From Eubacterium sp. (GTDB lineage Bacteria; Bacillota; Clostridia; Oscillospirales; Acutalibacteraceae), in contig JARHZA010000001.1 in assembly GCA_029258375.1 (NCBI GenBank), positions 496,001 through 560,000 on the forward strand: 64,000 bases of DNA. Direction: 5' to 3'. A model generated the notes under the pieces. It was not told the origin of the DNA. It worked only from the letters and a program-made list of their open reading frames with translations, and made no database searches. The translations under genes were made by a program, and so were the position numbers. Shown in pieces: positions 27,498-42,111 of this stretch; position 1 is the first letter of the stretch; every line of letters starts with the position of its first letter.

Positions 27498-29066
27498 TTA
27501 TGCGTTGTTAGAAATTCTTTTCTTTGCAACAAGTGCTACAACTACTAAACCAAGTGCGGTTGTAATCATTAAATACATAGTAGCTGAAGTGCTTTCTTCA
27601 ACTGCACCTGTATTTGGAGAAATAACGCTATTGTCTTTATCGGTATCTGCGTTATTATCTGTATTAGGTGTTGTTGTATCTGGTTCAGCAGGTTCAACTG
27701 GATCAGTTGGCTCAGAAGGTTCAACTGGTTCAGGATCTGTTGGCTCTGGAACAACAGGCTTTGCTGGTTCGAGTTCGCTCATATCACTTGAATTACCAGT
27801 TGCAATTCTAAGAAGTGCATAAAGTTGAAATACTGAATCTTCCTTTGTATTGCTTAACATAAATGTAAGGTAATCAATAACATCTTGAGGAATTTGAGGA
27901 GCTATTGCTGGAACAAGAGGAAGAACGTTTAAAAGAACTTTTTTATTAGCTTCTTTGTTAAGGTTGTTATAAAGATAGTTAAAAATTACATTAAAAGCAT
28001 CTGTTTCATCTTCAGCATTTACAAGATTTGATTTGTTGAATTTATCAAATTTTAATACTCCGTTACCGCCTTCTCCAAATGAAATAATATCCATTCTTTT
28101 GCCAGCAATTTGTGCAGCTAAAACATCATTTATAAAATAAGCGATTGTTCCTTCTAAATCAAACATTTTAGCATCGCCTTCGCCAACTGTTGGAAGAGCA
28201 TTTATCGCATCAACTATATCAGAAATAGGTTGCTTAATTGGAGAAAGATCAAGACCTGGTACGAATGAGCCAATCATAGGTTCGAGAGCTTTGATCATAT
28301 CAAGAAGCATTGGGAAGAATTTTGATACACTGTTGTAAAGTAATGCATTATTTTTGTCGTCAGCGAAGTTTTTAATAATACCAACTATATTATTTGATAC
28401 GTTAGGTAAAATACCATCTATAATATTGTTGATATAATTTACAAGGTTTTGTCTTTTTGTAGCATTATCGACGTTTTCACCAGCTAAAATTATATCTGCT
28501 AATGCAATGTCTTGTTCAATGCCAAGAGCTTTGAAAGCACCATCAATATGGCCAACAAATTCACCTATTTTTGCATCTCCGATTGAAGGAGTCATTGATC
28601 CGCCGATTGCAATTACAAAAATGATTGTAGTACATACGTTTTCCGTAACAACGGCATTAACAATCTTTTTCATCTTAGTAGCAAAATCTGCATTGTCTTT
28701 AACTACAACAGGATATTCTTTAAAGTATGCGTTAAGAGATTCTGTTGTAACTTCTGCTGATTCATCAAGATTTGCAAAAATTTCTGAATCTGCATTTTTA
28801 TAAAAAGCAGATTTGCTTGCTTCTGGTATAAATGATTTTAATCCAGGAACCATTGCATAAATTGATTGGATTGTTTCACCTGTAAGTGCAGCATCACCAA
28901 GTAATTTGTTTGCGTCTTCTAAGATTGTTGAATAAACCTTTTTTGTTGTCTTTTCTGTGTAAGTTGCCTTGTAACCGTCAGCAGCAAATGCTTGAATTGA
29001 ACATGAAAATGTCAAAACGATAGCAAGAATTGCACTGATTATTTTGGTTGACATTTTTGTTTTCAT
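27498..29066 (-). CDS. Secreted surface protein with SPNTG sorting signal
   Basis: This 522-residue protein is made for export and wall attachment. A signal peptide (residues 1-29, ending AFAA) is followed by a ~400-residue mostly helical region that I do not recognise. Next comes a Pro/Glu/Thr-rich spacer with repeated EPxxPxEP units (about 430-465), then SPNTG (483-487), a hydrophobic helix and a KKR tail. The last three elements form a variant LPXTG sorting signal of the SPxTG type used by some clostridial sortases. No sortase gene is in the window. A strong GGAGGG site precedes the start. Its function is unknown, and an adhesin or structural surface role is only an inference. Confidence 0.8.
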   Translation of the reverse strand: MKTKMSTKIISAILAIVLTFSCSIQAFAADGYKATYTEKTTKKVYSTILEDANKLLGDAALTGETIQSIYAMVPGLKSFIPEASKSAFYKNADSEIFANLDESAEVTTESLNAYFKEYPVVVKDNADFATKMKKIVNAVVTENVCTTIIFVIAIGGSMTPSIGDAKIGEFVGHIDGAFKALGIEQDIALADIILAGENVDNATKRQNLVNYINNIIDGILPNVSNNIVGIIKNFADDKNNALLYNSVSKFFPMLLDMIKALEPMIGSFVPGLDLSPIKQPISDIVDAINALPTVGEGDAKMFDLEGTIAYFINDVLAAQIAGKRMDIISFGEGGNGVLKFDKFNKSNLVNAEDETDAFNVIFNYLYNNLNKEANKKVLLNVLPLVPAIAPQIPQDVIDYLTFMLSNTKEDSVFQLYALLRIATGNSSDMSELEPAKPVVPEPTDPEPVEPSEPTDPVEPAEPDTTTPNTDNNADTDKDNSVISPNTGAVEESTSATMYLMITTALGLVVVALVAKKRISNNA

Positions 29067-30912: not shown

Positions 30913-31959
30913 GTGAAATTTATTTCTGCAATTTGTGCTGGGGCGATCGCTTTAGGGGCTTGTGCGTTTCCTGCTTATGCAAACGAAAAAAACTTTGATA
31001 AGTCCTTACCATCTCTAAATAAAGAAGATGGTTGGGAGCAAACATTAAATACAGATTTTTCAGAATATAGTTCTATTGATGAAGTATATCAAAATAGTCC
31101 TTGGGGAGCAGAAGGTTCTCATGGAAAGAGAAAAACTGAATATTGGTGTGATCAAGCACTAAAAATAGACACAGACGAAGGATCATTGGTTATTAAGTCA
31201 ACAGAAGAAGATAACCACAATTGCCCAGTTTGTAATCAAAATAAAGGTATTTTTACCGGTTGTTTGGAAACAAGACCAACAGAAAATAACAAAGGTTTTA
31301 AACAAGCGTTTGGATATTATGAAGTTGTTTGTAAAGTGCCTGATGCTCCGGGTATGTGGTCTGCTTTTTGGTTGCAAAGTGACGGTGCTACCAAGGTAGG
31401 TAATAAAGGCAAAGACGGCACAGAAATTGATGTTTATGAGTCATCTTTTCATCAAAAAAACAGAACAAAAACAGGTAATGCTCTTCATTATGATGCATAC
31501 AGTCATCCTTGGTATAAATGTGTAGATCATGTAACAGATGTAGGTTATGACCTATATGACGGTGAATTCCATAAATACGCACTTCATTGGACTCCGAACT
31601 ATTACGTTTTTTATGTTGATGATAAACCTGTATGGGCAACCGATGCAGGAGATGTTTCGTGCGTTCCATCATTTTTGCGTCTTACTGTTGAAATCCGTGG
31701 TGATGTTCTTGGACCTTATGGGCAAAAACTTGGTGAATTTGAAAATAGAACAGATGGAAGTACGGATTTTGAAGTAAAAAGCGTTAAGGTTTGGCAAAAA
31801 GAAAGTTACAAAGAGTACATAAAACAAGACTCTGATTTTGAAGATAAAAGACAAACTTATGATAAAATTTTGCACACATCACTAATTGCAGGAGGTGCTG
31901 TTTTAGCAGCCGGAATTATTGGTGCTGGTGTTGCGATTAAGAGAAAATTTAAAAAATAA
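30913..31959 (+). CDS. GH16 glycoside hydrolase with signal peptide and C-terminal membrane anchor
   Basis: The 348-residue protein is exported (signal peptide ending AYANE, about residue 24) and has the GH16 catalytic signature EIDVYE near residues 174-179, preceded by FGYYEVVCKVPDAPGMWSAFW and followed by HKYALHWTPNYYVFYVDD. GH16 enzymes cut beta-glucans and related polysaccharides. A CPVCNQNKGIFTGC insert with three cysteines precedes the core. The last ~28 residues form a hydrophobic helix followed by KRKFKK, so it is held at the membrane without a sorting motif. The start is GTG with an AAAGGGTG site. It shares the fold of the lipoprotein at the left edge but uses a different anchor. Confidence 0.92.
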   Translation: MKFISAICAGAIALGACAFPAYANEKNFDKSLPSLNKEDGWEQTLNTDFSEYSSIDEVYQNSPWGAEGSHGKRKTEYWCDQALKIDTDEGSLVIKSTEEDNHNCPVCNQNKGIFTGCLETRPTENNKGFKQAFGYYEVVCKVPDAPGMWSAFWLQSDGATKVGNKGKDGTEIDVYESSFHQKNRTKTGNALHYDAYSHPWYKCVDHVTDVGYDLYDGEFHKYALHWTPNYYVFYVDDKPVWATDAGDVSCVPSFLRLTVEIRGDVLGPYGQKLGEFENRTDGSTDFEVKSVKVWQKESYKEYIKQDSDFEDKRQTYDKILHTSLIAGGAVLAAGIIGAGVAIKRKFKK

Positions 31960-32903: not shown

Positions 32904-32932
32904 TTGACAGTTTGTTCTAAAAAGAATAATAT
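32904..32932 (+). promoter_or_regulatory. Predicted sigma-A promoter of the dlt-like operon
   Basis: A perfect TTGACA and TAATAT are separated by 17 bases. The start of transcription would fall near 32939, giving a leader of about 200 bases before the first gene. Confidence 0.65.
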
Positions 32933-33142: not shown

Positions 33143-34660
33143 ATGACAAACGTTTTGGAATTTCTTGAAAATTCAGCAAAAATACATAGCAATAAAACCG
33201 TAGTTGAAGATATTGAAAAAGGTTATACTTACGAACAGTTTGTTGGTTTAGCAAAAACAATTGGTAGCAATATTGCAACAACACAGAGTGTTAGAAAACC
33301 TGTTATTGTTTTTATGGAAAAAAGTGCAGATGCACTTGCTGCTTTTATGGGCATTGTTTATGCTGGTTGTTTTTATGTAATGGTTAACCCAGAACATCCA
33401 ACAGTTAGAATAAATCAAATCTTAAAAGTATCTGAAGCGGAATATCTTATAACAACACCAGAATATTCTGAAAAACTTGCAGAAGTTGAATACAACGGAA
33501 AAGTTGTTAATCTTGAAGATTTAATGAGTGGCGAAATTGATGAAAATAAACTTTCAGCAATTCGTGAACAGTCTCAAGACATTGATCCACTTTACTGTAA
33601 CTTTACATCAGGTTCAACTGGTGTACCTAAGGGCGTACTTGTAGGTCATCGTTCTGTAATTGACTTTATGGAATATTTCACCGATTTATTTAACATTACA
33701 GAAAATGATATAATCGGTAACCAAGCACCATTTGATTTTGATGTATCTGTTAAAGATATTTACTCAACATTTAAAACTGGTGCAACAATGGTTGTTATTC
33801 CTAAAAAGTTGTTCTCAATCCCAATGCAGTTACTTGACTACCTTTGTGAAAGAAAAATAACTACTCTTATTTGGGCAGTATCTGCTCTTTGTATGATTAC
33901 AACATTAAAAGGATTTACTTACAAAGTTCCTGCAGATATTAACAAAGTTTTGTTTAGTGGCGAGGCAATGCCAATTAAACATTTGAATCAATGGAAAAAA
34001 TATTTACCAAATGTTGATTATGTTAATCTTTACGGCCCAACAGAAATTACTTGCAACTGCACATATTATCGCATAGATAGAGGTTTTGAAAAAGGTGATG
34101 TTCTTCCTATTGGACAAGCATTTCCTAACGAAAAAGTATTTCTTCTTGATGATGAAGATAAAGAAATTACAAATGCAAATGAACCTGGAGAACTTTGTGT
34201 TTCAGGAACAGCACTTGCACTTGGCTATTATAATAACCCAGAACAAACTGCAAAAGCATTTGTTCAAAATCCGCTTAATAAGGCATATATGGAAACAATT
34301 TATAGAACAGGCGATCTTGCTTATTATAATGAAGCGGGCGAACTTTGTTTTGCAGGAAGAAAAGACTTCCAAATTAAGCATATGGGACATAGAATTGAAC
34401 TTGAAGAAATTGAAGCTGCCATCAATGGCTGCAACAATGTAACAAGAGCTTGTTGTGTTTTTGATACAAAGAGAAATAAAATTGTTGCGTTTTATGTTGG
34501 CGAAGCAGATAAAGACGAAATTCATGCTTACCTTTCAGAAAAACTTCCTGTATTTATGATTCCTAACGTATTTAATCAAATTGACGAAATGCCACTTACA
34601 CAAAACGGTAAAATAGATAGAAAAAGTTTACTTGAAAGTTGTGGAGGAAGAAGAAAATGA
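33143..34660 (+). CDS. dltA: DltA-like amino-acid adenylating enzyme (carrier-protein ligase)
   Basis: The 505-residue enzyme activates an amino acid with ATP and loads it on a carrier protein. Motifs include the P-loop FTSGSTGVPKGV (about 154-165), APFDFDVSVKDIY (Asp about 200, matching the DltA aspartate that binds the amino group), NLYGPTEITC and YRTGDLA, with the catalytic Lys in QNGKIDR near the end. It is closest to DltA by length and layout. However, the FCGE motif whose Cys shapes the D-alanine pocket in DltA reads FSGE here (Ser about 272), and the WAVSALC strand differs too. Substrate identity is therefore open. It overlaps the next gene by ATGA. Confidence 0.85.
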   Translation: MTNVLEFLENSAKIHSNKTVVEDIEKGYTYEQFVGLAKTIGSNIATTQSVRKPVIVFMEKSADALAAFMGIVYAGCFYVMVNPEHPTVRINQILKVSEAEYLITTPEYSEKLAEVEYNGKVVNLEDLMSGEIDENKLSAIREQSQDIDPLYCNFTSGSTGVPKGVLVGHRSVIDFMEYFTDLFNITENDIIGNQAPFDFDVSVKDIYSTFKTGATMVVIPKKLFSIPMQLLDYLCERKITTLIWAVSALCMITTLKGFTYKVPADINKVLFSGEAMPIKHLNQWKKYLPNVDYVNLYGPTEITCNCTYYRIDRGFEKGDVLPIGQAFPNEKVFLLDDEDKEITNANEPGELCVSGTALALGYYNNPEQTAKAFVQNPLNKAYMETIYRTGDLAYYNEAGELCFAGRKDFQIKHMGHRIELEEIEAAINGCNNVTRACCVFDTKRNKIVAFYVGEADKDEIHAYLSEKLPVFMIPNVFNQIDEMPLTQNGKIDRKSLLESCGGRRK

Positions 34661-35832
34661 AAAAAAATCAAATGATTGAAGCAGCATCAAAATTTGAAAC
34701 ACCTTTTTATGTTTTTGATAGTGATGTATTAAATGCTCAAGTAAAAAAAATTAAAGACGCTTTACAGTCAACAGCAAAAGTTTGCTATGCAATGAAAGCA
34801 AACCCATTTATCATAGGCGAAATTGTTGATGCTGTTGATTGCTTTGAAGTTTGCTCTCCTGGCGAATTTAGAATTTGCGAAAGAGCAAATATCCCAATGG
34901 AAAAAATTGTTATGTCAGGCGTTTATAAGAATAAAGATGATATTCATTATGCACTTGACACATATAAAACAGAGGGTGTTTACACTGTTGAATCTTATAA
35001 TCAATGGCTTCTTTTATCAGAATATGCAGCAAAGAACGAATTAAAAATTAAAGTTTTACTTCGTCTTTCAAATGGAAATCAGTTTGGTATGGATAAGTCT
35101 GTTCTTGAAGGCATTATTGAAGATAGAGAAAATCATCCTTTTATTCACATTGAAGGTGTGCAGTATTTTACTGGTACACAAAAGAAACCAGCTTCTAAAA
35201 TTGAAAGAGAAATCAAAAAAATTGATTCTTTAGTTATTGAATTAAAAGAAAAGTATGGTTTTGAATCAGAAAAAGTAGAATACGGCCCAGGTCTTCCAAT
35301 TTGCTATTTTGAAGGCGAAGAAAATGTTGAAGATGTAATGTTAGAGGCACTTTGCAATGCAATTAAACAAATGCAGTTTAAAGGCGAAGTTGTTCTTGAA
35401 ATGGGCAGATATATCGCAGCATATTGCGGTTATTATTTCTCAAAAGTTGTTGATGAAAAAGTTAACAAGTCACAACCTTATTGTATTATTGACGGTGGTG
35501 TTCATCACGTTAACTACTATGGTCAAATGATGGCTATGAAAATGCCTCCAATCGTTCATCTTGAAGAAAAAGATGAAGAACCAAAGAACTGGTCTATTTG
35601 TGGCAGCCTTTGCACAGTTAATGACGTGCTTGTTAAGGCATACCCATTTAAAGGCCTTGAACACGGTGATACACTTGTTTTTGAAAAAACTGGTGCTTAT
35701 TCATCAACAGAAGGTATTTCACTTTTACTTAGCCGTGATTTACCACAAATTATTATTTATTCAGAAAAAGATGGTTACCGTGTTGCAAGAACACATTATG
35801 CAACCGATATCATAAATTACTTTCAAAAATAA
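34657..35832 (+). CDS. PLP-dependent fold-type III decarboxylase inside the dlt-like operon
   Basis: The 391-residue protein belongs to the DAP/ornithine decarboxylase superfamily (alanine-racemase fold). The PLP lysine is K47 in CYAMKANP. GVQYFTGTQ (about 167-175) replaces the GLHxHIGSQ loop of LysA, EMGR (248-251) replaces EPGR, and the second active-site Cys and Asp are in CGSLCTVNDVL (C319, D323). The altered loop resembles relatives acting on conjugated amino acids (BtrK/PvsE types) more than LysA. It starts at the ATG overlapping the dltA-like stop (ATGA, with GGAGG upstream), so it is translationally coupled. A six-codon upstream extension is rejected. A racemase activity is possible but less likely given the Cys. 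Confidence 0.85.
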   Translation: MKKNQMIEAASKFETPFYVFDSDVLNAQVKKIKDALQSTAKVCYAMKANPFIIGEIVDAVDCFEVCSPGEFRICERANIPMEKIVMSGVYKNKDDIHYALDTYKTEGVYTVESYNQWLLLSEYAAKNELKIKVLLRLSNGNQFGMDKSVLEGIIEDRENHPFIHIEGVQYFTGTQKKPASKIEREIKKIDSLVIELKEKYGFESEKVEYGPGLPICYFEGEENVEDVMLEALCNAIKQMQFKGEVVLEMGRYIAAYCGYYFSKVVDEKVNKSQPYCIIDGGVHHVNYYGQMMAMKMPPIVHLEEKDEEPKNWSICGSLCTVNDVLVKAYPFKGLEHGDTLVFEKTGAYSSTEGISLLLSRDLPQIIIYSEKDGYRVARTHYATDIINYFQK

Positions 35833-35850
35833 AAAAAGGAGATAATAAAA

Positions 35851-36081
35851 ATGGAAGAACTTTTAGAAATCTTAGAGGACATTAAACCTGGTGTTGACTA
35901 CGAAACAGAGGATAAGCTCATTGATAACGCTATCCTTGATTCATTCTCAATTCTTTCACTTGTATCAGAACTTGAAGATGCATTTGATATTGAAATCACA
36001 CCTGTTTATCTTGTTCCTGAAAACTTCAACTCAGCTGCAGCTCTTTGGAACATGGTACAAAAACTTCAAGAGGAGAACTAA
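35851..36081 (+). CDS. dltC: DltC-like acyl/aminoacyl carrier protein
   Basis: This 76-residue acidic four-helix carrier protein has the phosphopantetheine serine in LDSFSILS (S31), as in DltC. It would receive the activated amino acid from the adenylation enzyme and hand it to the membrane O-acyltransferase. The ribosome site is AAAGGAG. The next gene starts at the base after its stop codon. Canonical operons place dltB before dltC; here dltC comes first. Confidence 0.9.
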   Translation: MEELLEILEDIKPGVDYETEDKLIDNAILDSFSILSLVSELEDAFDIEITPVYLVPENFNSAAALWNMVQKLQEEN

Positions 36082-37665
36082 ATGGCGTATAATTCAATAC
36101 TGTTTTTATGCGCTTTTTTACCTGTATCGCTTTTAGTATATCAAATATGCCCAAAGCGATATAGGTGGGTTGAATTACTCGCTTTTAGTTATTTATTTTT
36201 CTTTATTTTTAGTGGATTCTTAGTTGTTTATTTAATTATTTCTACTGCCAGCGTTTATTTTCTTGCACTTTTACTTGATAAGTGCAAAGCAAGCTATAAG
36301 TTAAAAAGAAAGACAACCGACGATAAAGCAGCATTAAAAAAATCATTTACAAGACAAAAAAGATTTTTATTATGGGCAGGAATTATTATCAACATTGGTA
36401 TACTTGCGTTCTTGAAATATTATAATTTCTTTGGCCATAATACAAATCTTTTATTTGATTCACTACATATTGGTGCAACACTTCCAAAATTAAAACTCCT
36501 TGTTCCAATTGGTATTTCATTCTATTCATTACAAGCAGTATCATATTTAACAGATGTTTATGGTGGTAAAATAGCAGCCGATAAAAATTTCGGCAGACTT
36601 GCACTTTATATGTCTTTTTTCCCACTCATAATGGAAGGTCCAATCTGTCGTTATTCTCAAATTGCAGAGGATCTTTATGAAGGCAGACCTCTTAAATATT
36701 CAAATCTTCAAAACGGATTCATAAGAATTTTATGGGGTTTATTTAAAAAGGTTGTTATTGCAGATAGACTAAATATTTTGGTTGAAGCAATATTCTCTCA
36801 TAGCGAAAGATATGGCGGTATCGTAATTATACTCGGTGCTGTAAGTTATACATATCAACTTTATATGGAATTCTCAGGTTGTATTGACTTAACAATAGGT
36901 GTTGGTCAAATGTTTGGTATTACAATTCCTGAAAACTTCCGTCAGCCATTCTTCTCACGTTCTGCATCAGAATTTTGGCGTAGATGGCATATCACACTTG
37001 GTGCATTTTTTAGAGATTATATCTTCTATCCAATCTCACTTACAAAATTTGTTAAAAATGTTGGTAAAAAGTCAAGAAAACGTTTTAAAAACCATTTTGG
37101 TCAAGTAATCCCATCAGCATTTGCTTTGTTTGGAGTTTGGATTTGTAACGGCTTTTGGCACGGAACAGGCTGGACTTATATTTTCTATGGATTGTATTAC
37201 TTTGTAATAATCTTGCTTGAAAATATACTTGAGCCTTACAGTTTCAAGTTTACTGACAAGTTTAAAATTAACAGAGAATCTTGGGGATTCAAAGCACTTC
37301 AAGTTACAAAAACACTTTTAATCATATTTACAGGCGAGTTGTTCTTTAGAGCACCAAGAATGCTTACTGCAGTAAGTATGTTTAAATCAATATTTACAGA
37401 CTTTAGCTTTTCTGTTTTCACAGACGGAACATTATCTAAGATTCCATTTTCTGCTTATGATTATGCAGTTTGCATTGCAGGCTTCTTTGTTGTTTTGGCT
37501 GTTGGAATTGTTCACGAAAAGGGTATTTCTATTAGACAAAAACTTGAAGAAAAGAATTTTGCATCTCAATTTACAGTATATATGTTGCTTGTTTTAGCAA
37601 TTGTTATGTTCGGTGCTTACAGTGGTGCTTATGCACCAGTAGATCCTATTTATGCAGGATTTTAA
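36082..37665 (+). CDS. dltB: MBOAT-family membrane O-acyltransferase (DltB-like)
   Basis: The 527-residue multi-helix membrane protein transfers an acyl or aminoacyl group across the membrane to an extracellular hydroxyl. The MBOAT signatures are FWRRWHITLGAFFRDYIFYP (about 299-318, given as key residues W-H and R-D-Y) and CNGFWHGTGWTYIFYG with the catalytic His (about 360). The sequence is about 120 residues longer than classical DltB and resembles AlgI/PatA-type proteins as much as DltB. It directly abuts the carrier protein gene, so the carrier is its likely donor. Confidence 0.9.
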   Translation: MAYNSILFLCAFLPVSLLVYQICPKRYRWVELLAFSYLFFFIFSGFLVVYLIISTASVYFLALLLDKCKASYKLKRKTTDDKAALKKSFTRQKRFLLWAGIIINIGILAFLKYYNFFGHNTNLLFDSLHIGATLPKLKLLVPIGISFYSLQAVSYLTDVYGGKIAADKNFGRLALYMSFFPLIMEGPICRYSQIAEDLYEGRPLKYSNLQNGFIRILWGLFKKVVIADRLNILVEAIFSHSERYGGIVIILGAVSYTYQLYMEFSGCIDLTIGVGQMFGITIPENFRQPFFSRSASEFWRRWHITLGAFFRDYIFYPISLTKFVKNVGKKSRKRFKNHFGQVIPSAFALFGVWICNGFWHGTGWTYIFYGLYYFVIILLENILEPYSFKFTDKFKINRESWGFKALQVTKTLLIIFTGELFFRAPRMLTAVSMFKSIFTDFSFSVFTDGTLSKIPFSAYDYAVCIAGFFVVLAVGIVHEKGISIRQKLEEKNFASQFTVYMLLVLAIVMFGAYSGAYAPVDPIYAGF

Positions 37666-37681
37666 AAGAGGAGGTACAAAA

Positions 37682-38662
37682 ATGTTTTCTAAAATAATGA
37701 AACCACTTTCATTTGCACTGGCTTTTATTTTAATTATAACTGGTTTGGGTTATCTTTTTGCACCTAAATATGCTCCTGATATTGATGCTGGCACACACTT
37801 GGAAAAATCATCTAAAGCTATTTTTAACGAAGATAAAAACACTGTTGATTTTGTTGTAATTGGTAATAGCGAAACATATACATCAATTTCTCCAATGGAA
37901 ATTTATAATGAATATGGTTACACAGGTTATGTTAGCGGAATTCCAGGAATGAGAATTCAAGACGTTTATTATAATTTAGCAGATATTTATAAAACACAAA
38001 AACCTAAAGTTGTTTTGCTTGAAGTAGATGCAACTTTTAGATATTATGGTGGCGGAGTTAAGCAACTTCAAATGACTGCTGAAGGTTGGTTAAAACGAAT
38101 TTTTCCTGTTTTTGAAAACCATAATAGATGGAAAAATCTTATCAACAGTTCTTTATATGGATACGAAAAATTTGTAACTGAAAAAGATCCACTTAAAGGA
38201 TATAATTACAGAACAAGAATTAAAAAGTATACTCCAAAAGACTGGATGAAAGAAACAACAGACGTTGCACAAATGCGTAAGATAAACAAGAAATATCTTG
38301 AAAAAATTACAAAGATCTGCAAAGAAAATGGTTCACAGCTTATTTTATATAGCTCTCCAGCTCCAAAAAACTGGAATTATTCAAAACATAATTTTATTGA
38401 ACAATATGCTAAAGAAAACAATTTAGAATATGTTGACATGAACTTAGCGGTTGATAAAATTGGCATTGATTGGAGCAAAGATGCTTGGGATAACGGAGAT
38501 CATCTTAACGTTACCGGTGCGATGAAAACAACAAAATATATTGGTGAATACTTACATAATAATTGCAACCTTGAAGATCATAGAGGGGATAGTGCTTATT
38601 ATTCATGGGCTGATAGCTGGGATGAATATAAGCGAATTACAAGTGAGGATAAACTTATATAA
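37682..38662 (+). CDS. dltD: DltD-like SGNH-type extracytoplasmic protein
   Basis: The 326-residue protein has an N-terminal membrane helix (about residues 9-26) and an outside domain of SGNH/GDSL type. The nucleophile Ser is in VVIGNSETYTS (about 65), and the Asp-His pair is in DNGDHLNVTGA near the C-terminus. DltD-like partners work with MBOAT proteins in transferring groups to wall polymers. A longer frame starts at 37652 inside the MBOAT gene, but the GAGGAGGT site fits the ATG at 37682. It closes the operon and is followed by a terminator. Confidence 0.82.
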   Translation: MFSKIMKPLSFALAFILIITGLGYLFAPKYAPDIDAGTHLEKSSKAIFNEDKNTVDFVVIGNSETYTSISPMEIYNEYGYTGYVSGIPGMRIQDVYYNLADIYKTQKPKVVLLEVDATFRYYGGGVKQLQMTAEGWLKRIFPVFENHNRWKNLINSSLYGYEKFVTEKDPLKGYNYRTRIKKYTPKDWMKETTDVAQMRKINKKYLEKITKICKENGSQLILYSSPAPKNWNYSKHNFIEQYAKENNLEYVDMNLAVDKIGIDWSKDAWDNGDHLNVTGAMKTTKYIGEYLHNNCNLEDHRGDSAYYSWADSWDEYKRITSEDKLI

Positions 38663-38707
38663 TTGTTATATTAAAAATATTATAATTGTTTTAAGCTAAA
38701 ACAAATA

Positions 38708-38741
38708 AAAATCCATCTGAACTTTCAGATGGATTTTTTTA
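38708..38741 (+). terminator. Terminator between the dlt-like operon and the second GH20 gene
   Basis: ATCCATCTGA and TCAGATGGAT pair around a short loop, with A-run and T-run flanks that suit both convergent transcripts. Confidence 0.88.
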
Positions 38742-38761: not shown

Positions 38762-40387
38762 TTATTTAGTAAGCAAATTATAAAGCCAGTTTTTAGGTAA
38801 ATTTGATTCTATGCCAGCGTATCGTTCATATTCCATATTTGGATTTTTAAGCCAATCTTGTGGTCTTGTTAATTTTCTGATTTTTCCTTGTTTGCCCTCA
38901 CAAAGATAATAAATTTCAGGGGCTGGAACAATGTTGAATTTATTGAAAATATCATCAAAAGATTTTAAACGGTTGTTAAAATCATCAAAGTCCCTTAAAT
39001 CCTTTTGAGTCCAGCACATTTCAGCAAGTGCTTGTAAACGTGGATAAACATTAAAGTTATATTTACCTTCATCTCTAACATATTCAGTCCACATAGGGCA
39101 TTCCATACCAATTACTTTGTCTTGATATTTTTCAGGTAATCCAAGTGTGTCATAATCCATTGAATAAAAATGACGTAAATCACTTTTAGCATAAAAGTAA
39201 TCAGTATAAACATATTCACAAGATGTAATTATTATTGAATTGCCGTCTTCAACCCATTTTGAAACACCGTTCTTTTTACAGTTGCCTGTCCACCACTGAA
39301 CAATTGTGTCTGAATTTATGTTGCCATTCTTTAAAATTTCGTTCCAACCGATTATATTTTTGCCTTTTGATTTAAGATGATTTTGAACTCTTTCGTTAAA
39401 AGCACCTTGAAGTTCTTCTTCATTTTTTAAATTTAACTCTTTTATTTTGGCTTGGCAATGAGAGCATTTTTTCCATCTTTTCTTTGGAACTTCATCACCA
39501 CCAATGTGGAAATGTTTTGAAGGGAATAGAGGTGCTAATTCGTCAATAACATCAAACACAAAATTATATAGTTCATCTCTTCCGGCACAACCAATTGTCT
39601 CCATAACGCCCCATCGGTTTGCAACATCTAAATTTTCTTTTGTGCAAGATAGTTCAGGGTAACAAGCAATTGCAGCAGTTAAATGACCTGGCATATCAAT
39701 TTCTGGTATAACTTCAATATTTAATTCTTTTGCATATTGAACTATTTCTTTAATATCTTCTTGTGTGTAGAATAAACCTTTTCCGTATTCTGCGTCATCG
39801 TGAACTTCTTTGTGTTTTGGATAGCCAACAAGATTAAGTTGTGTGTTTTTACGAATAGAACCTTTTTCTGTTAATAAAGGATATTTTTTTATTTCAACTC
39901 TCCAACCTTGGTCGTCAGTTAAGTGCCAATGAAAAACATTTAACTTTAAAAGAGCCATCATATCAAGTTGTTTTTTTACAAATTCTTTGCCAAAAAAGTG
40001 TCTTGCTTCGTCAAGCATAAATCCTCTGTGTGCAAAACGTGGTTCATCAACTATCGCACAGCAGCTGAATTTTTTGCTTTTTCCTGCAGCAATTCCAGAA
40101 ATTTGGAGTAATGTTTGAACTGCATAAAAAACGCCATTTAAGTCATTTGCTAAAATTAAAACTTCATCATTATTTACATCAAGAATATAAGCTTCTTTTT
40201 TTATTTCTTCGGAATATTTTATAATAAAATTCTTTTTTGAATCTTTATTATCTTTGCTTGCAAAATCAAAATATTTTTCAATTATTTTTTCTGCATCTTC
40301 AATTTCAAACTTTATACCCATTTTTTCATTAAATTCAAAATAAGTATCGTAAACCTTTAAATCTTTTGGTTTTGGAATAATGTTCAT
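38762..40387 (-). CDS. Second GH20 beta-N-acetylhexosaminidase
   Basis: The 541-residue enzyme is a paralogue of the GH20 at 3.3 kb. It shares MNIIPKP at the start, RGFMLDEARHFFG, HWHLTDDQGWRVEIKKYPLL and the catalytic Asp-Glu in HIGGDEV (298-299), with a late ECPMWTEYV motif. No signal peptide is visible, so it is probably cytoplasmic. The two copies differ throughout, which indicates an old duplication and perhaps different linkage preferences. The start has a clean AAGGAG site. The gene is monocistronic. Confidence 0.94.
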   Translation of the reverse strand: MNIIPKPKDLKVYDTYFEFNEKMGIKFEIEDAEKIIEKYFDFASKDNKDSKKNFIIKYSEEIKKEAYILDVNNDEVLILANDLNGVFYAVQTLLQISGIAAGKSKKFSCCAIVDEPRFAHRGFMLDEARHFFGKEFVKKQLDMMALLKLNVFHWHLTDDQGWRVEIKKYPLLTEKGSIRKNTQLNLVGYPKHKEVHDDAEYGKGLFYTQEDIKEIVQYAKELNIEVIPEIDMPGHLTAAIACYPELSCTKENLDVANRWGVMETIGCAGRDELYNFVFDVIDELAPLFPSKHFHIGGDEVPKKRWKKCSHCQAKIKELNLKNEEELQGAFNERVQNHLKSKGKNIIGWNEILKNGNINSDTIVQWWTGNCKKNGVSKWVEDGNSIIITSCEYVYTDYFYAKSDLRHFYSMDYDTLGLPEKYQDKVIGMECPMWTEYVRDEGKYNFNVYPRLQALAEMCWTQKDLRDFDDFNNRLKSFDDIFNKFNIVPAPEIYYLCEGKQGKIRKLTRPQDWLKNPNMEYERYAGIESNLPKNWLYNLLTK

Positions 40388-40560: not shown

Positions 40561-42111
40561 TTAAACTTTTTTCATTTTTTTTAATTCATTTAAAAGTGCG
40601 TCTTTAACATTTTTATTTTCTACTTCGTTTATTTGTTTTAAGGCGTCATCATAATATTCATCTGTTTTATTTTTTTCAAATTTAGAAATTGCAATTTCAG
40701 CCTCTTTATATTTAATTACACCGCTTTTATTTGTCATTACAATATATTTGCCATTGTTTTTCATATCGGTTTTCTTTACATAGTCATAATAAGAAATGTT
40801 TATATCTACTTTGCCACCATTTCCTGTTATACCGTCTACTGAACCTTTATCACTATATTGCCACATACGAAACGGATGTTTAAAGTCTGTTTCATTAGAA
40901 GTGTAATGAGCCATCCAAATTTGATATTTTGAAAGTTTTGAATATTCTAATTGATTATAATAAAATGACTTGCTTGCATAAATTCCCGGTGTGTAACCAG
41001 AGTTCTTAACTGTTTCACAAAAAGCAGTTGCAATTTCTGTTCGTTCTTGTTTTGATAAACTATCTGCTCGTCCATCGTGTTGTGGATTTGAAAATTCAGT
41101 GTCAAAATAAATAGGGTAGTCTATTTTGTATTGTTTTGCGTATCTAATGCATAAGCTTGCTTCTTCAATTGCTTCATCAATTGTAATTGCTTGGCTGAAA
41201 AAATAAAGTCCAATTGGCATATCTGCTGCAGATGCACCTTTAAGATTTTTTTCTAAATTTTTATCAATCAATGCTGGCTTTATTGGATCTTTTGTGCCAT
41301 AACCTCTAAAACCAACACGTATTATTGCATAATCTATTCCATCGTTTTTAACTTTTTGCCAATCAATATCTCCGTTATAGTATGAAACATCAATCCCAAC
41401 TTTAGATGCGTTTGCACCATATTCATTAAATAAATAGTTTCGACTGCCAATTTTTTGTATTCCTTTTAATGGATTGTGGTTATCATCAAAATAAAATTGA
41501 ACGCCGTCAATTTGTTGCCATCCAATCAGATTTGATATGTCTGCATAGTAATATTTTGTGTAGTCAGAAGAAAAAGAATCCGAGGTTATAGGCTTATCTG
41601 GTTTGTTTTCTTCTGGTGGTTTGTTGTCATCGTGGTGGTCATCAATAGAAGGACCACTGCTGTCATTTCCATCCAGTGAACTGTCTGGCACTTTGTTCGG
41701 CCCTTTATCCTCATCTTTTGCAGAATTGCCTGTTGCTATGTTAACTTTTACATTTTTATCTGCAACAAAAGGTTTATGTTTTTCAGTAATAATTTTGCTG
41801 TTTTCTTCTGTTGTTGCAGAGGTTTCACCGTATGAATTTGTTTCGGTTAGTTCCTCCGTTGCAATAACAGGAACTTCGTTTAAAACTGTTGTTGAATTTG
41901 TTTCATATTTATCTTTGTTAGGGAAAATATGAAATTTTGCAACTAAGATAGCTACTGAAATTATAATTACTACTAATACAGTTATAAGAGATATAATTTG
42001 AGCCTTTGTTAACTTTTTCTTATTTTGTATTTCTATATTGTCTGCATTAGAATTTGCCTGTTTAGATTCTATATTATTATCATTTTCAAAGATTTTATCA
42101 TCTTGTTCCAA
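40561..42111 (-). CDS. Membrane-anchored GH25 muramidase (lysozyme-like)
   Basis: The 516-residue protein cuts the glycan strand of peptidoglycan. After a polar ~37-residue cytoplasmic tail comes a membrane helix (about 38-60), then a long Ser/Thr/Pro/Asp-rich outer linker. A GWQQIDGVQFYFDD...YLF segment (about 197-228) resembles a choline/glucan-binding repeat. The GH25 domain spans about 238-440, with Asp241 in GIDVSYYNGDIDW and the catalytic pair in YFDTEF (D337, E339). A ~75-residue helical tail follows. The start is TTG with an AAAGGAGGG site. The membrane tether and own wall-binding repeat suggest a role in remodelling the cell's own wall, not defence. Confidence 0.9.
   Translation of the reverse strand: MEQDDKIFENDNNIESKQANSNADNIEIQNKKKLTKAQIISLITVLVVIIISVAILVAKFHIFPNKDKYETNSTTVLNEVPVIATEELTETNSYGETSATTEENSKIITEKHKPFVADKNVKVNIATGNSAKDEDKGPNKVPDSSLDGNDSSGPSIDDHHDDNKPPEENKPDKPITSDSFSSDYTKYYYADISNLIGWQQIDGVQFYFDDNHNPLKGIQKIGSRNYLFNEYGANASKVGIDVSYYNGDIDWQKVKNDGIDYAIIRVGFRGYGTKDPIKPALIDKNLEKNLKGASAADMPIGLYFFSQAITIDEAIEEASLCIRYAKQYKIDYPIYFDTEFSNPQHDGRADSLSKQERTEIATAFCETVKNSGYTPGIYASKSFYYNQLEYSKLSKYQIWMAHYTSNETDFKHPFRMWQYSDKGSVDGITGNGGKVDINISYYDYVKKTDMKNNGKYIVMTNKSGVIKYKEAEIAISKFEKNKTDEYYDDALKQINEVENKNVKDALLNELKKMKKV

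Follow-up and report, generated by a model that had tools for sequence, protein, structure and literature searches.

The window analysed here, a 64,000-nucleotide stretch of a Eubacterium sp. genome, carries on its forward strand (positions 33143-38662) a tight unit of five genes encoding, in order, an amino-acid adenylating ligase, a pyridoxal 5′-phosphate (PLP) decarboxylase, a carrier protein, an MBOAT acyltransferase and an SGNH-like protein. We use Dec as shorthand for the decarboxylase, and read the operon as probably serving to acylate the cell envelope from a carrier protein, one of its steps being a decarboxylation. Its gene content is conserved, Dec is coupled to one type of ligase pocket, the catalytic residues are retained and the MBOAT ends in an acyl-shuttle motif. 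The operon is common to many gut Clostridia and is a relative of the D-alanine decoration system. A first-pass annotation of the window had listed these five genes in this order and had noted that Dec starts within the ligase stop; all five are indeed present on the + strand, and where the ligase ends and Dec begins the two genes share the four bases ATGA at 34657-34660 (Dec ATG at 34657). The features are as follows.

33143..34660, + strand: stand-alone amino-acid adenylating ligase, a DltA relative
34657..35832, + strand: Dec, fold-type III (alanine-racemase fold) PLP decarboxylase, BtrK-like
35851..36081, + strand: carrier protein, 76 amino acids
36082..37665, + strand: MBOAT acyltransferase, 527 amino acids
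37682..38662, + strand: SGNH-like protein in the DltD/PatB place, with a hydrophobic N-terminus
38707..38738, + strand: terminator-like hairpin closing the operon, 14 pairs and a T run
32904..32932, + strand: weakly supported promoter-like site ahead of the ligase

The MBOAT start (36082) lies immediately 3′ of the carrier stop (36081), and the best start of the SGNH-like gene is the ATG at 37682, which is preceded by a strong ribosome-binding site (GAGGAGGT). Terminator-like sites in the region number 9 against 2.6 expected, the hairpin at 38707-38738 having the longest stem and also serving the convergent gene at 38762-40387; promoter-like sites number 43 against 31.2 expected. The source genome is 1.7 Mb long with an estimated completeness of 98.5%, and the window lies within its contig C2.

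Conservation of the operon and its decarboxylase

Searches of 97 relatives besides the source genome found a strong Dec match in 12 (E ≤5.4e-102, 43-48% identical), the other listed matches being 6e-17 or weaker. The order ligase-Dec-carrier-MBOAT-SGNH is kept in 12/12 of these near-relative loci, one ligase being cut by a contig end, and their flanking genes differ; an additional SGNH-like gene is complete in three of the loci and cut in a fourth. Recurrence of this order in other species, among different neighbours, makes it more than chance.

A wider scan of one genome per species matched the Dec patterns in at least 595 stretches; 559 of these code for a relative at E 1e-3, though some may not be Dec. 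The best 80 loci were retained, several of them cut by contig ends; by record title they are mostly Clostridia (e.g., Lachnospiraceae), and the titles also include some genera of Erysipelotrichia type and a single Bacteroides (L088). The exact five-gene order occurs in 48 of these 80 loci and all five families, in any order, in 63. A full or partial ligase precedes Dec in 76 (75 by a strict distance rule, L104 by gene order), and an MBOAT is found in 70, accompanied by an SGNH-like gene in 68.

A class-wide sample of 291 genomes was screened in one draw for both genes, yielding 13 Dec matches at an E limit of 1e-50 and 57 ligase matches at 1e-110. The top nine of each set, ligases at 757-897 bits and Decs at 335-612 bits, belong to the same nine loci, where they are adjacent genes. 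The remaining four Dec matches (184-191 bits) come from genomes without a listed ligase, and the remaining 48 ligases (415-621 bits) from genomes without Dec at E 1e-50. Thirty of the 57 ligase loci were read with their flanks, and the 21 Dec-less ones among them show no Dec in the flanks available. The conserved order, together with the pairing of Dec with a single ligase type across this sample, bears out the earlier proposal that Dec belongs to the system.

Dec matches both ornithine/diaminopimelate (DAP)/arginine decarboxylase domains of Pfam; its match to the alanine-racemase N-domain is weaker, and the same scan found no alanine-racemase C-domain. The best PDB chain is BtrK, both with the single sequence (E 1.4e-31) and with a profile (E 1.4e-44), in keeping with the BtrK superfamily precedent that the first-pass annotation had invoked, and the alignments show Tyr at position 171 and an LCT motif in both proteins. 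Across 93/93 Dec sequences the PLP Lys47, Thr174-Gln175, Glu248, Gly250-Arg251, Cys319, Asp323 and Tyr348 are invariant, position 171 is Phe or Tyr and position 320 is Thr or Ser. Dec is thus, like BtrK, an alanine-racemase-fold decarboxylase with its PLP Lys and catalytic Cys in every member. In the available part of PMC7857480, BtrK groups with other decarboxylases that act on modified substrates, and this clade has an ancestor in common with DAP decarboxylase.

The LysA-like sequences compared (18 taken, the genome's own included, 17 readable) have Glu at Dec position 320 in 17/17 and, in the same 17, an Arg within the 285-292 stretch. In LysA these two residues grip the distal end of DAP. 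Dec has other residues in place of both signatures, the Glu next to the catalytic Cys and the Arg-x-x-x-Tyr stretch, and scores 165.6 bits against TIGR01048 (DAP decarboxylase; cut-off 297.9). A LysA-like gene is present elsewhere in the genome (272 bits, below the same family cut-off). We rejected Dec as a DAP decarboxylase for lysine supply on the basis of this second gene and the missing signatures, and as a racemase on the basis of the domain matches and the decarboxylase Cys; the racemase alternative mentioned in the first-pass annotation finds little support in the residues.

Ligase pocket, acyl-transfer proteins and neighbourhood

The ligase is a member of the AMP-binding family that scores above the TIGR01733 cut-off. 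Against two DltA models it reaches 316 and 330 bits, below both cut-offs; for the DltA family TIGR01734, where it scores the 316 bits, the cut-off (559.85) is passed by 0/98 genomes, its own included, and by 2/14 controls. The pocket residues are D200, V201, K204, W244, L270, S272, L296, C304, N305 and K490, which we mapped via core motifs to the ten-residue code (GrsA numbering) set out in the part of PMC11253843 available, the mapping being our own. Dec-associated ligases were represented by 88 sequences (one identical pair, two fragments), ligase matches below 300 bits in the 80 loci being left out. The code D-V-K-W-(L/M/I)-S-(L/V/I)-C-N-K occurs in 86/86 of those with the full region. Among the Dec-less loci of relatives, 27/33 ligases read S-M-(T/S/L)-W-(L/M)-A-L-D-I-K (one without the last letter), which lacks Asp235 and has Asp330; the other six differ. 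The 21 Dec-less class-level ligases comprise 19 with D-A-(K/R)-W-A-(G/V)-L-G-(M/I)-K, one with D-S-K-W-M-C-I-V-D-K and one of the S-M type. The Dec-associated ligases differ from each of the two common Dec-less types in having Val236, Ser301, Cys330 and Asn331.

Positions 236, 301 and the 330-331 loop are reported, in the literature passages available, to set alpha versus beta recognition in VinN and in engineered TycA. The alpha-to-beta switch of TycA involved changes at position 236 and in the loop, with A236V selected every time. Val236 of the ligase corresponds to that change and Ser301 to VinN S299, and the ligase has the VinN-like features of a retained Asp235 (D200), a bulkier residue at 236 (V201; Val, not Phe) and Ser301 (S272). 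These differences favour recognition of Asp or Glu via the side-chain end, with mixed support because the loop is not shortened and Arg331 is missing (see below). The Cys that sets the choice of D-Ala in DltA (C268/C269 in the passages available) is replaced by Ser in 87/87 Dec-associated ligases with that column, and is present in three DltA-DltB-type loci of relatives (L181-L183).

Operons with ligase, carrier and MBOAT, mostly with an SGNH-like gene and lacking Dec, occur in relatives as sister operons (L165-L173, L175-L179, L185-L191, L194, L195; L189 is cut, L190 has no carrier frame and L195 has a broken ligase). The ligase code of these operons, SM(T/S)W(L/M)ALDIK, has lost Asp235 and gained Asp330, as if the substrate amine were placed elsewhere, and these enzymes may perhaps use a ready-made omega-amino acid. 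An alanine racemase gene lies near the sister operon of L177 (Pfam) and probably near that of L175 (likeness of the start only). A third, common ligase type without Dec, DA(K/R)WA(G/V)LG(M/I)K, was seen in 19 class-level loci (L207, L209-L221, L223-L227), with carrier and MBOAT in the available flanks of 17/19; it possibly uses an acidic amino acid without decarboxylation.

Ser31 of the carrier is invariant (13/13 in the near-relative set) and is expected from the sequence to bear phosphopantetheine; the genome has one match to a phosphopantetheinyl transferase. The carrier has no Pfam match at 0.001 and weak AmcB and DltC matches, the DltC cut-off not being reached. The MBOAT belongs to PF03062, scores below the cut-off of DltB TIGR04091, and as a profile searched against solved structures retrieved two DltB structures only (at 0.01). 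The catalytic His (His360, in a WHG motif) is invariant in 13/13. The last six residues, PIYAGF, constitute an acyl-shuttle motif whose first residue is Pro, and a C-terminal xxYxxF motif is present in all 13 MBOATs of the near-relative set and in 68/70 MBOATs longer than 450 amino acids in the 80 loci (L132 ends in IYAGY, L134 is masked). Within these 68 tails the first residue is Phe in 32, and FIYAQF occurs in 26. The fused motif is also found in 25/28 MBOATs of Dec-less loci, the three without it being the short ones of L181-L183 (377-379 amino acids). No DltX was noticed, and no DltX model was searched.

According to the available part of PMC12148441, DltX bears an FXYXXF acyl-shuttle motif and other such bacterial MBOATs have the motif at their own C-terminus; PatA acetylates the motif Tyr, and such systems other than Dlt have no carrier. 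With a ligase and carrier alongside a fused PIYAGF motif, the operon pairs a carrier-based acyl supply, as in Dlt, with a shuttle built into the MBOAT, as in PatA.

The fifth protein had been annotated as DltD-like, a label that the family models do not support: it has no Pfam match at 0.001, and at E up to 1 its sole match is GDSL lipase (0.0075), with none to DltD (PF04914). Scanned at E up to 1, 16 members of its family gave GDSL lipase in 9 (best 0.00029), DUF362 in 7 (best 3.9e-5) and DltD in 1 (0.0012). The superfamily matches are weak, and Ser63, Asp270 and His274 are invariant in 16/16; Asp270 and His274 stand one residue further apart than in the usual D-x-x-H. A profile search against solved structures returned no relative, only an unrelated ribosomal chain (E 0.24). 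On the weak family matches and the invariant Ser, Asp and His, we call the protein putatively SGNH-like.

In the window, the operon is flanked by GH16, GH20 (hexosaminidase) and GH25 (lysozyme-type) genes (30913-31959, 38762-40387 and 40561-42111), a cell-surface or glycan neighbourhood. Further upstream, at 27498-29066 on the - strand, lies a putative secreted surface protein that by eye has a Pro-rich stretch, PNTG, a hydrophobic tail and a basic end, and so resembles a wall-anchored protein. Among the 80 loci, a histidine-kinase-group gene lies within the operon's gene run in 19/80 and a response-regulator-group gene in 18/80 (L055, L057-L060 and L097 among them, confirmed by Pfam for L055 and L097). 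By eye, a two-component system also adjoins the operon in the near relatives L039 and L044, and none was seen beside the window operon. Such neighbours would fit a regulated envelope defence; of the candidates for a constant neighbour (a two-component system, a racemase, teichoic genes), none proved constant.

Two operon variants were observed. L092, L093, L102 and L110 encode a charged protein of 162-176 amino acids before Dec, in the place of the ligase (L110 is cut behind Dec); members of this family also lie near the operon in five loci with a ligase, and the L081 member has a sub-threshold DnaJ match. At L065:435-6954 and L066:441-6996, a second AMP-binding protein, an MBOAT and an SGNH-matching protein of 641 amino acids (with an ILEI-like domain by Pfam in L065) precede ligase and Dec, and no carrier was found next to Dec.

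Proposed reactions and alternatives

In the proposed scheme, the ligase would spend ATP on charging the holo-carrier with an acidic amino acid, attached by its side-chain carboxyl; L-Asp is the most likely substrate and Glu the next. Dec would then strip the free alpha-carboxyl on the carrier, as homology and precedent suggest, to leave beta-alanyl-S-carrier (or gamma-aminobutyryl-S-carrier, if the substrate is Glu). From its motif and homology, the MBOAT is predicted to move the acyl group to the Tyr of its own C-terminal PIYAGF at the outer face, where the SGNH-like protein may take it from the Tyr and esterify a polymer hydroxyl, probably of a teichoic-acid type. The resulting ester would have a free primary amine and so a positive charge, as with D-alanine, but on a different acyl group. 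We favour decarboxylation on the carrier since it occurs in the closest precedents that have this gene trio; in the passages available, VinO requires a prior thioester, AfcP acts on carrier-loaded Asp and BtrK on carrier-loaded Glu. Asp is placed ahead of Glu, a weak preference, because the precedents with stand-alone adenylation enzymes use Asp types.

Teichoic polymers are likely present in this organism, as the genome encodes four sulfatase-family proteins, one of 684 amino acids (LtaS-like by length only), along with glycerophosphotransferase genes. The latter (TagB/TagF-like) adjoin a second MBOAT-SGNH pair in the same genome (L050:6542-9212, contig C3 at ~272.5-275.2 kb), where no ligase or carrier was seen adjoining. 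More broadly, we hold it about evenly balanced whether gut Clostridia possess an entire family of MBOAT-SGNH operons, fed by a carrier and with the shuttle fused, in which the acyl group differs with the ligase, and whose Dec branch decarboxylates on the carrier and attaches beta-alanyl or gamma-aminobutyryl groups to an envelope polymer as esters.

Several observations weigh against the proposed reaction sequence. The one-residue-shorter beta13-beta14 loop of the VinN type was not found, the loop having equal length in 88 Dec-associated and 33 Dec-less ligases, and the position of Arg331 in VinN and AfcQ is Asn in the Dec-associated ligases, so the ligase is not VinN-like there. Lys or Arg at position 239 also occurs in 20/21 Dec-less class-level ligases; this residue is alone no proof of an acidic substrate or of coupling to Dec, and we have withdrawn Lys204 as a diagnostic of an acidic substrate. 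A quick tree of 117/121 ligases (four fragments left out) places the 85 Dec-associated rows in one fully supported group with the 32 Dec-less rows outside it, so the link between code and Dec is a single evolutionary event with no independent repeats. The Dec-associated set was mostly chosen by Dec, the class sample alone being free of that choice. In addition, Dec has no adjoining ligase in 4/80 loci, and 6/80 lack an MBOAT despite room for one (L076, L088, L095, L101, L113, L119).

Decarboxylation could also precede loading: Dec would act on a free amino acid (e.g., Asp to beta-alanine) and the ligase would load the finished omega-amino acid, with the remaining steps as above. IdnL3, in the available passages, decarboxylates free beta-glutamate before loading; the conserved gene coupling of Dec and ligase fits this order equally well, and the normal length of the ligase loop agrees with it. 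We still consider it unlikely, as BtrK, the nearest solved relative, shares with VinO and AfcP the use of a carrier-loaded substrate, AfcQ gave no beta-Ala activation in the passages available, and Asp235 and Lys239 are kept together, which would be unusual for a single-amine substrate. Nor do we expect the operon to make a small amine-containing product, a free lipid or metabolite, with no polymer decorated. This would suit the known ligase-decarboxylase-carrier trios, which in the available passages serve antibiotic-type pathways, and the loci in which the trio has no nearby MBOAT (L076, L088, L101, L113, L119), but we regard it as decidedly improbable given the MBOAT in 70/80 loci, 68 with an SGNH-like gene, the retained shuttle motif, and the lack of a natural-product-like pathway among the 14 largest neighbour groups (by eye; few scanned).

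A D-alanylation close to the canonical one, with D-Ala loaded and Dec racemase-like or accessory, would account for DltA and DltC being among the best family matches of ligase and carrier, for the match of Dec to the alanine-racemase N-domain, and for the racemase genes near the two sister operons of L177 (Pfam) and L175 (start likeness only). It is made very unlikely by the better fit of Dec to both decarboxylase domains, its lack of the racemase C-domain and its decarboxylase Cys (93/93), by the replacement of the D-Ala-selecting Cys with Ser in 87/87 Dec-associated ligases while L181-L183 retain it, and by the curated DltA, DltB and DltC cut-offs, all of which were missed. We give slightly less credence still to lysylation, in which meso-diaminopimelate would be loaded and decarboxylated to a lysyl thioester: DAP decarboxylase is in the Dec superfamily and a lysyl ester would be strongly cationic, but the LysA Glu and Arg-x-x-x-Tyr are replaced in Dec, and bulky residues (Lys, Trp and Leu/Met/Ile at 239, 278 and 299) would leave a pocket small for DAP.

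If carrier-bound decarboxylation feeding an envelope ester is correct, many gut bacteria bear a surface-polymer amine decoration other than D-alanine. Surface charge from Dlt groups affects resistance to cationic peptides and the binding of wall enzymes, and the operon would offer a concrete lead on how commensals set surface charge. To our knowledge, decarboxylation on a carrier is known only from natural-product pathways, and we know of no beta-alanyl or gamma-aminobutyryl ester decoration of teichoic-type polymers. Among the papers listed by literature searches aimed at this arrangement or its chemistry, with most subscription journals outside their coverage, no title or abstract start reports a dlt-like operon with a decarboxylase or beta-alanyl or gamma-aminobutyryl teichoic esters.

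Comparison with known systems

TIGR03099, of the exosortase-A-associated pair, is the best NCBIfam match of Dec, far below its cut-off (177 bits versus 478), and its partner TIGR03098 is among the ligase matches. The exosortase-A-associated ligase and decarboxylase have another genetic setting.

In butirosin biosynthesis (BtrI-BtrJ-BtrK), BtrK has the same alanine-racemase fold as Dec and works, in the passages available, on a carrier-bound glutamyl group; Dec is similarly partnered genetically with a ligase and a carrier. The product of BtrK goes into an antibiotic, and BtrJ belongs to another ligase class than the operon ligase. The first-pass annotation had taken butirosin as its precedent, and BtrK does remain the nearest solved relative, but closer precedents are found in VinN-VinO-VinL and AfcQ-AfcP-AfcK. 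These have, as far as the available passages go, the same trio of stand-alone adenylation enzyme, PLP decarboxylase and stand-alone carrier, and serve a beta-amino acid starter (Vin) and a lipopeptide (Afc), an Asp-type substrate being loaded first and decarboxylated on the carrier. The likeness of Dec to VinO and AfcP is one of role and gene trio, as those passages do not state their fold; the same passages name no MBOAT or SGNH partner, and the VinN/AfcQ-type pocket differs from that of the operon ligase in loop length and at residue 331. Further papers of the analysis, in the parts available and not tied to single claims, are PMC12419801, PMC12186527 and PMC11284099; PMC13231372 yielded no pocket terms.

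Dlt (DltA/B/C/D/X), the system of teichoic D-alanylation, has the same logic of ligase, carrier, MBOAT and SGNH protein. The present operon differs from it by Dec, by a shuttle motif on the MBOAT itself, by a ligase without the D-Ala Cys and by family cut-offs that are not reached; where a canonical DltB has no fused shuttle, the MBOAT here has 527 amino acids and ends in PIYAGF. The PatA-PatB type of MBOAT-SGNH system, as described in the available part of PMC12148441, has the same fused C-terminal shuttle of the FXYXXF type and an SGNH-like partner, the difference being that in the present operon the acyl group is supplied by ligase and carrier. The first-pass annotation was right to include Dec in the system and to point to BtrK, while its DltD label is not supported by the family models; the shuttle motif and the Dec-less sister operons with other ligase pockets were missing from it. 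The operon works like Dlt and PatAB, yet we do not class it as Dlt because the defining features of Dlt that were tested were not found in it. If the proposed reactions hold, carrier-fed (Dlt) and shuttle-fused (PatA) acylation, described as separate in the passages available, would be joined in a single operon.

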